From contig NZ_OCPC01000001.1 of assembly GCF_900220985.1 (NCBI RefSeq), positions 536,836 through 600,835 on the forward strand: DNA of 64,000 nucleotides. Reading direction: 5' to 3'. The notes beneath the pieces are model-generated. The model made no database searches and was not told the DNA's origin. It saw only the letters and a program-made list of their open reading frames with translations. The stretch is from Parahoeflea halophila. GTDB lineage: Bacteria > Pseudomonadota > Alphaproteobacteria > Rhizobiales > Rhizobiaceae. The first letter of the stretch is position 1; each line of letters starts with the position of its first letter. This document shows, one piece after another, positions 25,166 to 30,875 of the stretch. The translations under genes were made by a program, and so were the position numbers.

Positions 25166-25579
25166 ATGTCAGACAGACATATTTGCATCGTTGACGACGA
25201 CAAGGACGACATCTTCCTTATGTCGACTTCGTTGAAGCGGCTCGAAAGCAAAACGGCGATGCGCTTCAGGGTCAGCGCATTTTACAACGGCCAGGATGCG
25301 TTCGATTACTTCTCCACCGTTGAGAAACACGATACCGATCTGCCGGACTGCATAAGTCTCGACATCAACATGCCCGGCATCGACGGCATGGAGCTGCTTC
25401 GGCGGCTTCGCGAAATGAACCACCTCGCCCGCGTACCGATCTATATCGTCAGCACGACCGCCAACATCAAAACGCGAAGACAGGCATTGTCATACGGCGC
25501 CAATGGTGCATTCGCCAAGCCGGAGACGATTGCAGACATGCAGGCCATGCAAAGGGAATTGCTCGCCATACCAGAGTGA
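25166..25579 (+). CDS. Single-domain response regulator (Rcp1-like receiver)
   Basis: A 137-residue receiver with no output domain. Acidic residues Asp10-12, phospho-acceptor Asp66 (in CISLDINMPGIDG), the Ser/Thr patch STT at 96-98 and Lys118 are all present, so it should be phosphorylated. The extra loop before Asp66 and overall length resemble cyanobacterial Rcp1, which pairs with phytochrome-type kinases. ATG 25166 opens the conserved VDDDKDD region; the frame extends upstream without support. It is first of a three-gene unit; its stop overlaps a GTG of the kinase frame, though the kinase probably starts at 25594. Confidence 0.9.
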   Translation: MSDRHICIVDDDKDDIFLMSTSLKRLESKTAMRFRVSAFYNGQDAFDYFSTVEKHDTDLPDCISLDINMPGIDGMELLRRLREMNHLARVPIYIVSTTANIKTRRQALSYGANGAFAKPETIADMQAMQRELLAIPE

Positions 25580-25593
25580 AACTGAGGTACCGG

Positions 25594-26826
25594 ATGCCGG
25601 AAATGATACTGCAGTATTTCCAGACCAACTCATTCCTTGCGCATGGCTATTGCATGACCTGGCGCGCTGATCTCATAGCCCTTCACGCCATTTCCGATTT
25701 CCTGATTTTTGCCTCCTTTTTCATCATCCCCACAGCCCTCATCTTTCTTCACTACAAGCGGCCAGACCTGGTTCATAGTCGCATCGCGCTGCTGTTTTCC
25801 GCCTTCATCCTGGCTTGCGGCCTCACCCACCTGGTCGGCCTGGTCACGCTGTGGCAACCGATCTACGGCTTCGAAGGCGTACTCAAGGCCGGTACCGCTG
25901 TCGTTTCCGGCCTGACCGCACTCACCGCCTGGATGCTGATGCCCTCGGCTCTGAAGATGCCGAGCGCCTCAACGCTAAAGCTGAAGAATGACGCCCTGGC
26001 ATTGTCAATCAACGGGCAGCGCCAGGCCTATGCCGAACTCGAGCGCGCCAAGTTCGAACTCGATGCGCGCATTCAGGCACGTACGAGGGAATTGCGCGAA
26101 AAGGCCGAAGCCCTTGAGCAGGTCAATACCAGCCTCTCTCAATATGCCCATCTCGCTTCGCACGACCTGCAGGAACCCCTGCGCAAGATGGTGTCCTTCT
26201 CCGAACTCGCCATCGAGGAAGAGGCCTCAGGGGGACCGGAGCTCAAATTCTATCTGACCACGATCAAGCAGTCTGCCAGCCGGGCACGCAATCTCGTCCG
26301 CGATATTCTAAATCATTCAGCGATGGATCAGAGCAAGCCCGACATCCGTCCGCTCTCCTTGAGACAGGAGACCAGGCGCGCGCTTGAAACACACGAACTC
26401 GCGATCCGCGAACGTGACGGCGAAGTTGCCGTCGACATGCCCGATATCGTCGTCATGGCAGATCCGAATTTGGTGTTGCAAATTCTGCAGAACCTGATCG
26501 GCAACGCGATCAAATACACCCCGTCTGATCGCAGGCTCAAGCTGTCAATCGACACGGCAGCCACACATCGGGGCTTTGACTACACAATCGAAGACAACGG
26601 CATCGGGATAGACCCGGCATTCCGGGACAGGATCTTCCAGCCATTCTCTCAGCTTCAACCCGAAAGATACGTGAAGGGTACGGGCATGGGGCTGGCGATT
26701 GTCGACAAGGCGATCCGTCAGCTCGGCTGGAAGATCACGGTCGAGGCCGCGCACCCGCTGGGAACGAGGTTCCGTATCAGTATTCCAGCTTACCAGCTTG
26801 TCCAGGAAGGAGAACTGGTCGAATGA
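25594..26826 (+). CDS. Histidine kinase with an ethylene-receptor (ETR1)-like membrane domain
   Basis: A 410-residue membrane kinase. Three hydrophobic helices come first (residues ~28-110). They match plant ETR1's ethylene- and copper-binding domain: Asp35 in SDFLI, Ile45-Pro46, Ile72, Cys75 and His79 in ACGLTH. The Asp-to-Cys spacing is 40 and the Cys-to-His spacing four, as in ETR1 (Asp25, Cys65, His69). ETR1 Tyr32 is Phe42 here. A coiled coil (~145-185) leads to a HisKA with His190 in SHDLQEPLRKM, phytochrome-like, and a HATPase with DNGIGI and GTGMGLAI. There is no GAF or PAS. ATG 25594 has GAGG six bases before it; GTG 25576 does not. The stop overlaps the next receiver by four bases. 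Ligand inferred, not shown. Confidence 0.85.
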   Translation: MPEMILQYFQTNSFLAHGYCMTWRADLIALHAISDFLIFASFFIIPTALIFLHYKRPDLVHSRIALLFSAFILACGLTHLVGLVTLWQPIYGFEGVLKAGTAVVSGLTALTAWMLMPSALKMPSASTLKLKNDALALSINGQRQAYAELERAKFELDARIQARTRELREKAEALEQVNTSLSQYAHLASHDLQEPLRKMVSFSELAIEEEASGGPELKFYLTTIKQSASRARNLVRDILNHSAMDQSKPDIRPLSLRQETRRALETHELAIRERDGEVAVDMPDIVVMADPNLVLQILQNLIGNAIKYTPSDRRLKLSIDTAATHRGFDYTIEDNGIGIDPAFRDRIFQPFSQLQPERYVKGTGMGLAIVDKAIRQLGWKITVEAAHPLGTRFRISIPAYQLVQEGELVE

Positions 26827-27185
26827 AGAATATCCTGCTGATTGATGACGACGTCATGGAAGAGAAACTGATGCACATATTCCTGACACGCCGTTATGAC
26901 ACCGACTTTGGCCTGACCTATGTCGACAACATCAAGGATGGCATCGACCTGCTTCAAAGCCGAAGTTTCGATGTCGTCTTTGTCGACAGTTATCTGCCTC
27001 CCTACAACGGTGCCCACGAGACCTATCCGATCGTCTCCGCCCATGTCGGTGACGCCAATCTGATCTACATCTCATCCGGGTTCGACACGGCTGGACGAAT
27101 GTCCGCTGTCGATGCCGCCAATTTCCATTTCGTCGACAAACTGGAAATCAAGGACCGGATCATGGAAGGGCTGCTGGAGGCCTGA
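26823..27185 (+). CDS. Second single-domain response regulator
   Basis: A 120-residue receiver without output. Asp8-10, phospho-acceptor Asp55 in FVDSYLPPYNG, Ser84-Ser85 and Lys106 (FVDKLEI) are present, so phosphotransfer is possible. It is distant from the first receiver; its loop after Asp55 is YLPPYNGAHET, not the usual MPxMDG. Its start overlaps the kinase stop by four bases (ATGA), so they are translationally coupled. It may be a phosphate sink or act on another protein. The module ends here, followed by a convergent gcdH. Confidence 0.85.
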   Translation: MKNILLIDDDVMEEKLMHIFLTRRYDTDFGLTYVDNIKDGIDLLQSRSFDVVFVDSYLPPYNGAHETYPIVSAHVGDANLIYISSGFDTAGRMSAVDAANFHFVDKLEIKDRIMEGLLEA

Positions 27186-29404: not shown

Positions 29405-30442
29405 ATGATTAGGACTCTCGCAGATCATTTTGAAGTTGCCGCCGGACTGGCCTCCGGCATCAGTCGCTACGCCGCGGGACTGGGCCTCGATGTCGACCCG
29501 ATCGCCCGCGCGTGCGGTCTCGACCCGCAACGTTTTACCAATTTCAACGAGCGCATCAGCCTGGACAGGTTGTGCCGTTACATGGAAGCGCTCGCCCTGA
29601 TAGCAGGTGATGACACTTTTGGCCTGAAATCGGTCGCGGGTTTCGAAAAGGGCTCATCCGGGCCTTTCGGATACGGTTTGATGAATGCGCCAACCGTGCG
29701 TGACTTCCTGATGTTTTTCGGGCGCAACATGAGCAAGGTCAGCGAGACCCGGATCTGCACCCTGGAAATCGGCGCCCGTGCGGCACATTTTGAATGGACC
29801 TACTCCCCGCTGATTTTACACCGTGACCAGTATGTCGACATGGGGCTGGTCCAGGGCTTCAATCTGTTGCGCGTTTTCCTTGGCGACGACATCAACCGGG
29901 TGAAGCTCGAGCTTGAACGCAAGAAGCCGATTAATACAAATTATCACAAACAGTTACTAACTCAGAATGTCAGCTTCAACGCGCCCGTCAACGCCATGAT
30001 CATTCCGGCGGAATTTCTTGGCCGCAACAATCCCGACGCCGACCCGCGGCTGTTCGAGATCATGTCGATGCAGATGGATGCGATGCAAGCCAGCAGGACC
30101 GACATCGCTGATCCGGTCGTCGCCATCAAGCTCCAAGTGGCGGAAAACCTGGCCGACAACACCCCGACGCTGGCCAGTGAAGCCGAGCGTCTGGGGATGA
30201 GCCCGCGCACCTTGCAGCGACGCCTGACCGACGCCGGCACCAGCATGCAGGCAATCATCGATGAATGCCGCAAGGAGATGGCGGAACGGCTGCTGTCGGA
30301 AACCACGCTCACACTGTCCAGCATTAGCTACAAATTGGGCTTTTCCGCTCCCGCCGCCTTTACCCGGTCCGCAATCCGCTGGTTCGGCATGACTCCGAGC
30401 CAGTATCGCAAGGAAAATTTGCGCGGGCGCGAGGCGCGCTGA
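29405..30442 (+). CDS. AraC family transcriptional regulator (Arabinose_bd-like N-terminal domain)
   Basis: A 345-residue regulator with an N-terminal ~200-residue ligand domain (FGPFGYGLMNAPTVRDFL-type pattern; SGPFGYGLMNAPTV here) and a C-terminal pair of HTH motifs: PTLASEAERLGMSPRTLQRRL and SISYKLGFSAPAAFTRSAIRWFGMTPSQYRK. This is the OruR/ArgR-like Arabinose_bd group. There is no obvious ribosome-binding site before ATG 29405, so a leaderless message or later start is possible. It is divergent from the PAS gene. The inducer is unknown. Confidence 0.85.
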   Translation: MIRTLADHFEVAAGLASGISRYAAGLGLDVDPIARACGLDPQRFTNFNERISLDRLCRYMEALALIAGDDTFGLKSVAGFEKGSSGPFGYGLMNAPTVRDFLMFFGRNMSKVSETRICTLEIGARAAHFEWTYSPLILHRDQYVDMGLVQGFNLLRVFLGDDINRVKLELERKKPINTNYHKQLLTQNVSFNAPVNAMIIPAEFLGRNNPDADPRLFEIMSMQMDAMQASRTDIADPVVAIKLQVAENLADNTPTLASEAERLGMSPRTLQRRLTDAGTSMQAIIDECRKEMAERLLSETTLTLSSISYKLGFSAPAAFTRSAIRWFGMTPSQYRKENLRGREAR

Positions 30443-30600: not shown

Positions 30601-30641
30601 GATCCACACAACCGTTGGCCCGCCCATGGAGGGAAACACGC

Positions 30642-30875
30642 ATGAAATTCGGAAACGACCTTGGGTTTCTGCCCTTGACGGGAACTGAGCTGCATTGTCT
30701 GCGGGGTTGCGCCCAGGGACAGTCCGACCAGGAAATTGGTGCGGAGCTTGAATTGACCGCTGGCGAAGTGGCTTCGGTGCTCAACGTCGTCATGCTGAAG
30801 CTGCGTGTTCCCAACCGCCTCGCCGGACTGGCAAAGGCCGGCCGTCTGGGACTGTTTGACAATATAGACGTGTAA
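30642..30875 (+). CDS. Stand-alone LuxR-type HTH protein, 77 residues
   Basis: Almost the whole protein is a LuxR/GerE HTH: LTGTELHCLRGCAQGQSDQE, then IGAELELTAGEVASVLNVVM and LKLRVPNRLAGLAKAGRLGL. It lacks any signal or receiver domain. In the recognition helix the usual TVKxH reads EVASV, so DNA binding may be weak or altered. GGAGGG lies eight bases before ATG 30642. It could be an antagonist or a co-regulator that dimerises with a full-length LuxR protein. Hairpins flank the gene on both sides, so it is probably monocistronic. Confidence 0.7.
   Translation: MKFGNDLGFLPLTGTELHCLRGCAQGQSDQEIGAELELTAGEVASVLNVVMLKLRVPNRLAGLAKAGRLGLFDNIDV

Follow-up and report, generated by a model that had tools for sequence, protein, structure and literature searches.

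An ethylene-receptor-type histidine kinase of Parahoeflea halophila bracketed by two output-less receivers, one constant and one likely accessory

Composition and recurrence of the receiver-kinase-receiver triad

A stretch of 64,000 nucleotides from Parahoeflea halophila (contig NZ_OCPC01000001.1, positions 536,836 to 600,835 of the forward strand; hereafter the window) carries a sensor histidine kinase with an ETR1_N domain, the ethylene-binding-type membrane domain, which lies between the genes of two stand-alone receivers, RR1 upstream and RR2 downstream. In the genus, RR1 was found to be constant beside this kinase and RR2 to be variable, and RR2 belongs to a receiver lineage of its own. 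The three genes are intact open reading frames (ORFs) on one strand, and the ORF calls and Pfam agree that two different single-domain receivers bracket the ETR1-like kinase, as proposed by the initial annotation. Intact Asp and Lys residues in both receivers, tight packing with a kinase stop overlapping RR2, and the lack of a DNA-binding output had been claimed as well, and all were borne out. The alignment placed D10, D11, D66 (acceptor), T97, K118 and P119 in RR1, and D8, D9, D10, D55 (acceptor), S84 and K106, followed by L instead of P, in RR2; the kinase stop shares four bases (ATGA) with the RR2 start; and no further Pfam family scored above its cut-off in RR1, the kinase or RR2, so no output domain was found in them.

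The ETR1_N kinase was present in six of the 18 genus genomes (own genome included), and RR1 lies directly before it at all six loci. RR2 lies directly after it at three, namely the window, G682 and G685, and the ATGA overlap is kept in each of these triads. Its occurrence in G682 and G685 makes the triad more than a chance arrangement, and the view of it as a unique oddity was rejected; the search for the same three genes elsewhere, suggested in the initial annotation, thus turned out in favour of a real unit, and the asymmetry that it had expected between the two receivers was recovered. In G139, G690 and G687 the RR1-kinase pair has no RR2 behind it, and the best RR2 match elsewhere was weak (E 7.1e-7 to 5.9e-6). 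Because three genus genomes carry the pair in this form, RR1 seems to be the core partner, with RR2 as an accessory. By its constant place beside the kinase RR1 is likely the cognate partner, and an accessory role is likely for RR2, given its patchy presence, its separate ancestry and the overlap of its gene with that of the kinase.

Five of the six kinase loci adjoin the same dehydrogenase gene (2.4 kb off in G685), which in G687 lies at a contig end. When nine of the 12 kinase-less genus genomes were inspected over 8.5 kb each, all had the dehydrogenase and its next neighbour, and eight had the AraC gene, while none of RR1, the kinase and RR2 was found at E 1e-10 in those nine stretches; in one kinase-less genome (G689) the dehydrogenase is 98% identical. 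As the empty sites keep the dehydrogenase neighbourhood, the module comes and goes at one and the same site. In Rhizobium sp. 32-5/1 there are two kinase copies, neither with an RR1 or RR2 match beside it. ORFs near both copies (L009 on a plasmid, L010 on the chromosome) read like transposases, as judged from their proteins.

In a tree of 51 receivers RR1 forms a group of its own (support 98/98) with Breoghania nearest (94/95), and in Breoghania a receiver related to RR1 precedes the kinase. When RR2 was compared by blastp with 43 stand-alone receivers (E up to 10), RR1 was not among the matches, and RR1 orthologues appeared at E 0.24 or worse; judged by these comparisons, RR1 and RR2 are not close to each other. 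The best solved-structure match of RR1 was 6xvu, listed as response regulator only and presumably linked to a phytochrome, followed by 8avv (bacteriophytochrome, response regulator); RcpB 1k66, RcpA 1k68 and 5brj were further matches, with PrrA and Spo0A ranking among them. The kinase core was matched best by 8f71 (named histidine kinase only) and then by the bacteriophytochromes 8sgk and 8avv, the last of which matches both the kinase core and RR1. With such bacteriophytochrome and RcpA/RcpB entries among the solved relatives of RR1, the Rcp1-like character that had been suggested for one receiver may apply to RR1, as a receiver of the Rcp1/AgR kind.

Frequency of two-receiver loci among ETR1_N kinases

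Outside the window, 76 ETR1_N kinase loci were compared, being those retrieved in searches at order, class, family and genus level and of plasmids; the count covers retrieved stretches, leaves aside the weaker ETR1_N matches of the order and class searches, and requires sensor and kinase in one ORF, a requirement that excludes L103, L153, L157 and L160. At 37 loci no stand-alone receiver was found within 600 bp (L121 is scored here because its receiver ORF was called over-long), a fused receiver was found at 18, and one stand-alone receiver at 18, one of which also has a fused receiver. Two stand-alone receivers were found at three of the 76, i.e., in G682, in G685 and on a Blastomonas plasmid, the receiver pair of which belongs to other branches of the receiver tree. 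Within the own genome there are 35 HATPase_c matches, and the kinase of the triad alone among them has a pair of stand-alone receivers no farther than 1.5 kb away. The ETR1_N domain itself was detected in 64 of 397 order genomes (55 above the family cut-off) and in 28 of 385 class genomes.

On the plasmid of Blastomonas sp. RAC04, from an algal phycosphere, two stand-alone receiver genes, which overlap each other, lie on the strand opposite to an HWE-type ETR1_N kinase and face it (L175:2113-4095). On a conjugative plasmid of Novosphingobium sp. ES2-1 (L176:13-5462), the gene of an ETR1_N-type kinase overlaps that of a receiver, and one small gene separates them from a type II Cas9 gene.

The RR2 lineage

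RR2 falls in a 19-row group of the receiver tree (support 100/100) and in its 13-row subgroup (97/97), whose members besides the three RR2s come from loci of the same family without ETR1_N. AzoRRetr1, the receiver of the Azospirillum brasilense ethylene receptor AzoEtr1 (L172 5475-5957), falls outside the 19-row clade, and RR2 as its orthologue was rejected since the tree sets them apart. AzoRRetr1 likewise lies downstream of its kinase and overlaps it (PMC11819568), and from the same position, with the ATGA overlap in all three triads, RR2 might be taken for the main output and RR1 for a modulator. We consider this unlikely, because RR2 is missing beside three of the six genus kinases and RR1 beside none, and because RR2 and AzoRRetr1 are members of different receiver clades.

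With the RR2 profile at 60 bits or more, a limit that was chosen after the locus map had been seen, the lineage was found at 25 distinct places (the window and 24 others). At 14 of them (window, L099, L100, L107, L108, L109, L209, L210, L212, L214, L216, L233, L235 and L236), counted by eye on the map with gaps of no more than 258 bp between members, the receiver has both a kinase and another stand-alone receiver as neighbours. The other 11 places do not have this pattern: a kinase only was found at L208 and L220, two receivers without a kinase at L211 (the same place as L252, counted once), L234 is ambiguous and was excluded as its receiver ORF overlaps the kinase ORF, and the pattern was not seen at L110, L111, L213, L215, L217, L218 and L241. 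Between 50 and 60 bits, a range from which not every match was retrieved, 16 further places were obtained, many of their receivers being of a longer type of 143 amino acids (aa), and only L237 showed the pattern, which gives 15 of 41 places from 50 bits up.

The sensors of the RR2-lineage kinases are of several kinds: PAS_4 in L107, L108, L109, L209, L210 and L212 and PAS_3 in L214 according to Pfam, and an ETR1-type domain by a local profile in L099 and L100, with L233, L235 and L236 left out of the scan. At L216 (50-4603) the gene of a 1217-aa CheR-PAS kinase precedes those of two stand-alone receivers, the second one belonging to the RR2 lineage. A sensor swap within one kinase lineage was rejected, as PAS_4 triads and ETR1_N triads have kinase cores that group separately (quick tree with the SH-like approximate likelihood ratio test only); from these separate groups, RR2 would have joined an existing RR1-kinase pair or been lost from one.

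An internal control, which is no survey, was made with three genomes picked as carriers of the lineage (the own genome G000, G046 and G082), in which 98 HATPase_c matches and 37 stand-alone receivers, meaning open frames of at most about 205 aa, were compared by coordinates. Two stand-alone receivers had to lie within 1.5 kb of a kinase, a limit exceeded by the chemotaxis-like clusters of G000 and G046, each with two short receivers (a looser one would add them as two-receiver kinases without the RR2 lineage). Four kinases qualified, and an RR2-lineage member is present at all four. Such two-receiver loci contain four of the five RR2-lineage receivers, and of the 32 other receivers only the four partners.

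The residues D8, D9 and D55 are kept in all 26 RR2-lineage rows from the 25 places. Lys 106 is aligned in 22 of these rows and is never followed by Pro (F in 14, L in two, Y in two, and Q, V, S and A in one each); the four rows in which it is unaligned are of the 143-aa type. For comparison, 40 of 49 other stand-alone receivers have the aligned Lys, and 39 of those 40 have Pro after it. The odd Pro-less Lys-loop could speak for RR2 as a direct inhibitor that binds the transmitter of the kinase and is no phosphate sink, in the manner of Osp and CckA, and a single-domain regulator inhibiting a kinase is in print (PMC9430884). Yet all acidic residues, the acceptor Asp, the Ser and the Lys are kept, as expected of a phosphorylated receiver, and direct inhibition seems to us quite unlikely. 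The structure model of RR2 had a mean predicted local distance difference test score (pLDDT) of 60.2.

It is conceivable, although we hold it with some doubt, that the RR2 lineage is a portable second-receiver lineage of Hyphomicrobiales, placed on kinases with unrelated sensors (ethylene-type, PAS_4, PAS_3 and CheR-PAS), mostly beside another stand-alone receiver, and re-tuning them by a common mechanism that involves the unusual Lys-loop. If this were true, the window would contain a two-receiver chassis of general use to which an ethylene-type sensor had been connected. The lineage could also serve as a sequence handle for two-receiver kinases, and it raises the question of whether the role of sink or brake always falls to the same receiver class.

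The own genome has a second RR2-lineage receiver (G000:C6:237537-237890, L111:5511-5891), which neither a kinase nor another receiver directly adjoins. Ahead of a 750-aa multi-PAS kinase lies a 143-aa receiver that is a distant member of the RR2 lineage (G000:C2:62553-65222, L219); weak matches to RR2, in open frames of 148-153 aa, were obtained in 12 of the 18 genus genomes.

The sensor and its ligand

The hydropathy peaks of the kinase N-terminus lie at residues 27-45, 66-84 and 102-120, and a low-confidence model (mean pLDDT 66.9, predicted template modelling score 0.42) has a short first helix, then helices at 25-55, 57-87 and 91-121, and then a single long one; the peaks and the modelled helices fit an ETR1-type membrane domain. 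D35, C75 and H79 of the window sensor correspond to the Cu(I)-site residues Asp25, Cys65 and His69 of ETR1; the equivalents of I35, P36 and I62 are also kept, as is K98. The seventh position, that of Tyr32, which we take to be the seventh ETR1 residue needed for ethylene binding, is occupied by F42. The window kinase therefore has the ETR1_N sensor joined to a histidine kinase and the Cu(I) residues of ETR1-type receptor kinases, with six of the seven binding residues. In ETR1, the binding residues are I35, P36, I62, C65 and H69 (PMC6586836) together with D25 (PMC11819568), and the Cu(I) site of ETR1-type receptors is formed by Asp25, Cys65 and His69 (PMC12643061, PMC11819568). Furthermore, the sensor is 47.6-49.6% identical to seven Azospirillum records over 94-96% of the query, and the numbering of D35, C75, H79 and K98 is identical in AzoEtr1, for which D35A and C75A are changes predicted to stop ethylene binding (PMC11819568).

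D, C and H are all present in 64 of 81 sensor rows, 63 of which have Tyr at the Tyr32 position, and the window is the only one with Phe. Seven other sensors with Phe there (L138, L143, L144, L145, L146, L147 and L150) are each without at least one of D, C and H, and perhaps form a group that gave up ethylene binding. The chromosomal kinase copy of Rhizobium sp. 32-5/1 (L010:5001-6227) has Trp at the Cu-binding Cys, and its plasmid copy keeps the Cys. Together with the response of the Synechocystis receptor SynEtr1 to light as well (PMC11819568, PMC6682694), the Phe residues and the Trp copy leave some room for a sensor that no longer reads ethylene and is degenerating or responds instead to copper, to light or to a different small ligand. 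On the other hand, six of the seven residues and K98 are kept, the kinase and the receivers are intact, and Phe for Tyr is a mild change, and we regard the loss of ethylene sensing as rather unlikely. Ethylene is, from the conserved residues, the likeliest ligand, but the assignment is not safe because of this Phe. An ACC (1-aminocyclopropane-1-carboxylate) deaminase as a link to ethylene was not found in the own genome.

Proposed signalling and comparison with known systems

The reading that we prefer, and find quite possible while hesitating to call it probable, is that phosphate passes from the kinase to RR1, that RR1 works through contact with other proteins, and that RR2 competes as a sink or feedback element. 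Ligand binding at the Cu(I) site (D35, C75 and H79) would change autophosphorylation at H190, and the phosphoryl group would be passed mainly to D66 of RR1. In the absence of an output domain, RR1 would act through protein-protein contact. RR2, as the accessory second receiver, would take phosphate at D55, draining the kinase or feeding back on it, and the signal would be shorter or damped. As a guess by analogy, ethylene might lower receptor signalling here, in line with the inverse-agonist rule, which AzoEtr1 is predicted to follow and for which SynEtr1 gives indirect support (PMC11819568).

Several observations weigh against this reading. The kinase is missing from 12 of the 18 genus genomes; no promoter-like site was found on the + strand, so co-transcription of the triad is suggested by spacing; and the window alone combines a complete D, C and H set with Phe. 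To these are added the 11 of 25 RR2-lineage places without the two-receiver pattern and its near absence between 50 and 60 bits. RR2, with its full active site, could equally be the main output, as presumed for the Azospirillum downstream receiver.

The initial annotation spoke of an undescribed signalling system. This was too strong, given that AzoEtr1-AzoRRetr1 (PMC11819568), BphP1-AgR-ExsG-ExsF (PMC3899027) and MrrA/LovK/LovR (PMC5964349) are in print; the parts are of known kinds, and the RR2 lineage is the part worth following. The nearest described system is AzoEtr1-AzoRRetr1, in which AzoEtr1 binds ethylene and its stop overlaps the gene of the output-less AzoRRetr1. The triad is alike in its ETR1-type sensor, its output-less single-domain receiver and the receiver start overlapping the kinase stop, whereas AzoEtr1 has a PAS domain and one downstream receiver, and the window has no PAS, an extra upstream receiver and, in place of an AzoRRetr1 orthologue, a downstream receiver of another clade (PMC11819568). 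The SynEtr1-slr1213-slr1214 system of Synechocystis also combines an ETR1-type kinase with two response regulators in the pathway, but slr1213 enhances transcription of CsiR1 and slr1214, and the triad encodes no transcription-regulating receiver (PMC6682694, PMC11819568). In BphP1-AgR-ExsG-ExsF of Rhizobium/Agrobacterium, a Rhizobiaceae kinase works with two stand-alone receivers in a branched phosphate path demonstrated in vitro, and RR1 resembles phytochrome-partner receivers; that relay, however, needs a second kinase (ExsG) between the branches, and its sensor is a phytochrome (PMC3899027). Among the papers listed for two stand-alone receivers in the open-access literature searched, this was the relevant one.

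Some named Hoeflea members come from algae. Our search of the open-access literature gave no paper on Hoeflea with an ethylene receptor, nor on a bacterial ethylene receptor with a single-domain response regulator. The FAT GUY motif marks a group of single-domain receivers including MrrA and SdrG, and its FAT string was absent from both RR1 and RR2 in a string check. The Caulobacter MrrA/LovK-LovR system is similar in its use of single-domain receivers and differs in its sensor and in this string; there, kinase and response regulator (LovK-LovR) jointly act as a phosphate sink, a precedent for the role suggested for RR2 (PMC5964349). The related MrrA/PhyK/LovK network (PMC5964349), and the presence of stand-alone receivers without any output in the triad, might also suit a triad that is an input node of a network, both receivers passing phosphate on to a histidine phosphotransferase (HPt) or an MrrA-like hub. 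This appears improbable, with the FAT string lacking and with no HPt domain found by Pfam in eight window proteins around the triad, a scan outside which the dehydrogenase gene lay.

For AzoEtr1, the signalling path beyond the receptor is described as unknown (PMC11819568), and the onward signalling of bacterial ethylene receptors is thus an unsettled question on which the triad bears. Two receivers without output also make a small protein set in which kinase-to-receiver branching is directly measurable.

Locus layout and neighbouring genes

The coordinates are collected in Table 1. The host genome of the window is 4.19 Mb in size. The kinase ATG follows 14 bp after the RR1 stop, and an alternative in-frame GTG at 25576 would overlap that stop.

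Table 1. Features of the triad in the window
Feature	Position	Strand	Evidence
RR1, stand-alone receiver (137 aa; ATG start, stop included)	25166..25579	+	ORF call; Pfam Response_reg, 74.3 bits; solved-structure matches; alignment
Sensor histidine kinase (410 aa; ETR1_N, linker helix, HisKA, HATPase_c; ATG start, stop at 26824-26826)	25594..26826	+	Pfam; alignment; low-confidence model
ETR1_N three-helix membrane domain, ethylene-binding-type (residues 27-122)	25672..25959	+	Pfam (PF25487), 106.9 bits, cut-off 27; alignments; hydropathy
HisKA phosphoacceptor region (H190 within HDLQEPLRK)	26140..26328	+	Pfam, 32.9 bits; alignment
HATPase_c ATP-binding region	26461..26790	+	Pfam, 84.2 bits
ATGA overlap of kinase stop and RR2 start	26823..26826	+	ORF coordinates
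RR2, stand-alone receiver (120 aa; ATG start; separate receiver lineage)	26823..27185	+	Pfam Response_reg, 33.4 bits, cut-off 30.2; alignment; tree; residue counts

The 5′ neighbour of the triad is a gene of the Na/H-exchanger family on the same strand, and the 3′ neighbour is an acyl-CoA-dehydrogenase-like gene (named from its protein) on the opposite strand. Terminator-like sites numbered three on the - strand, versus a shuffled mean of 2.1, and none on the + strand. An AraC-family regulator (29405-30442) and an 86-aa ORF with a GerE domain (30615-30875) lie 2.2 kb and 3.4 kb downstream of the triad, past two opposite-strand genes; both are outside the packed unit, which has no DNA-binding gene inside it. 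Elsewhere in the own genome (G000:C10:389665-395090), short receivers (frames of 130 and 132 aa) flank a kinase-ATPase frame of 765 aa, with a 361-aa receiver protein between; we take this to be a chemotaxis cluster with two CheY genes.
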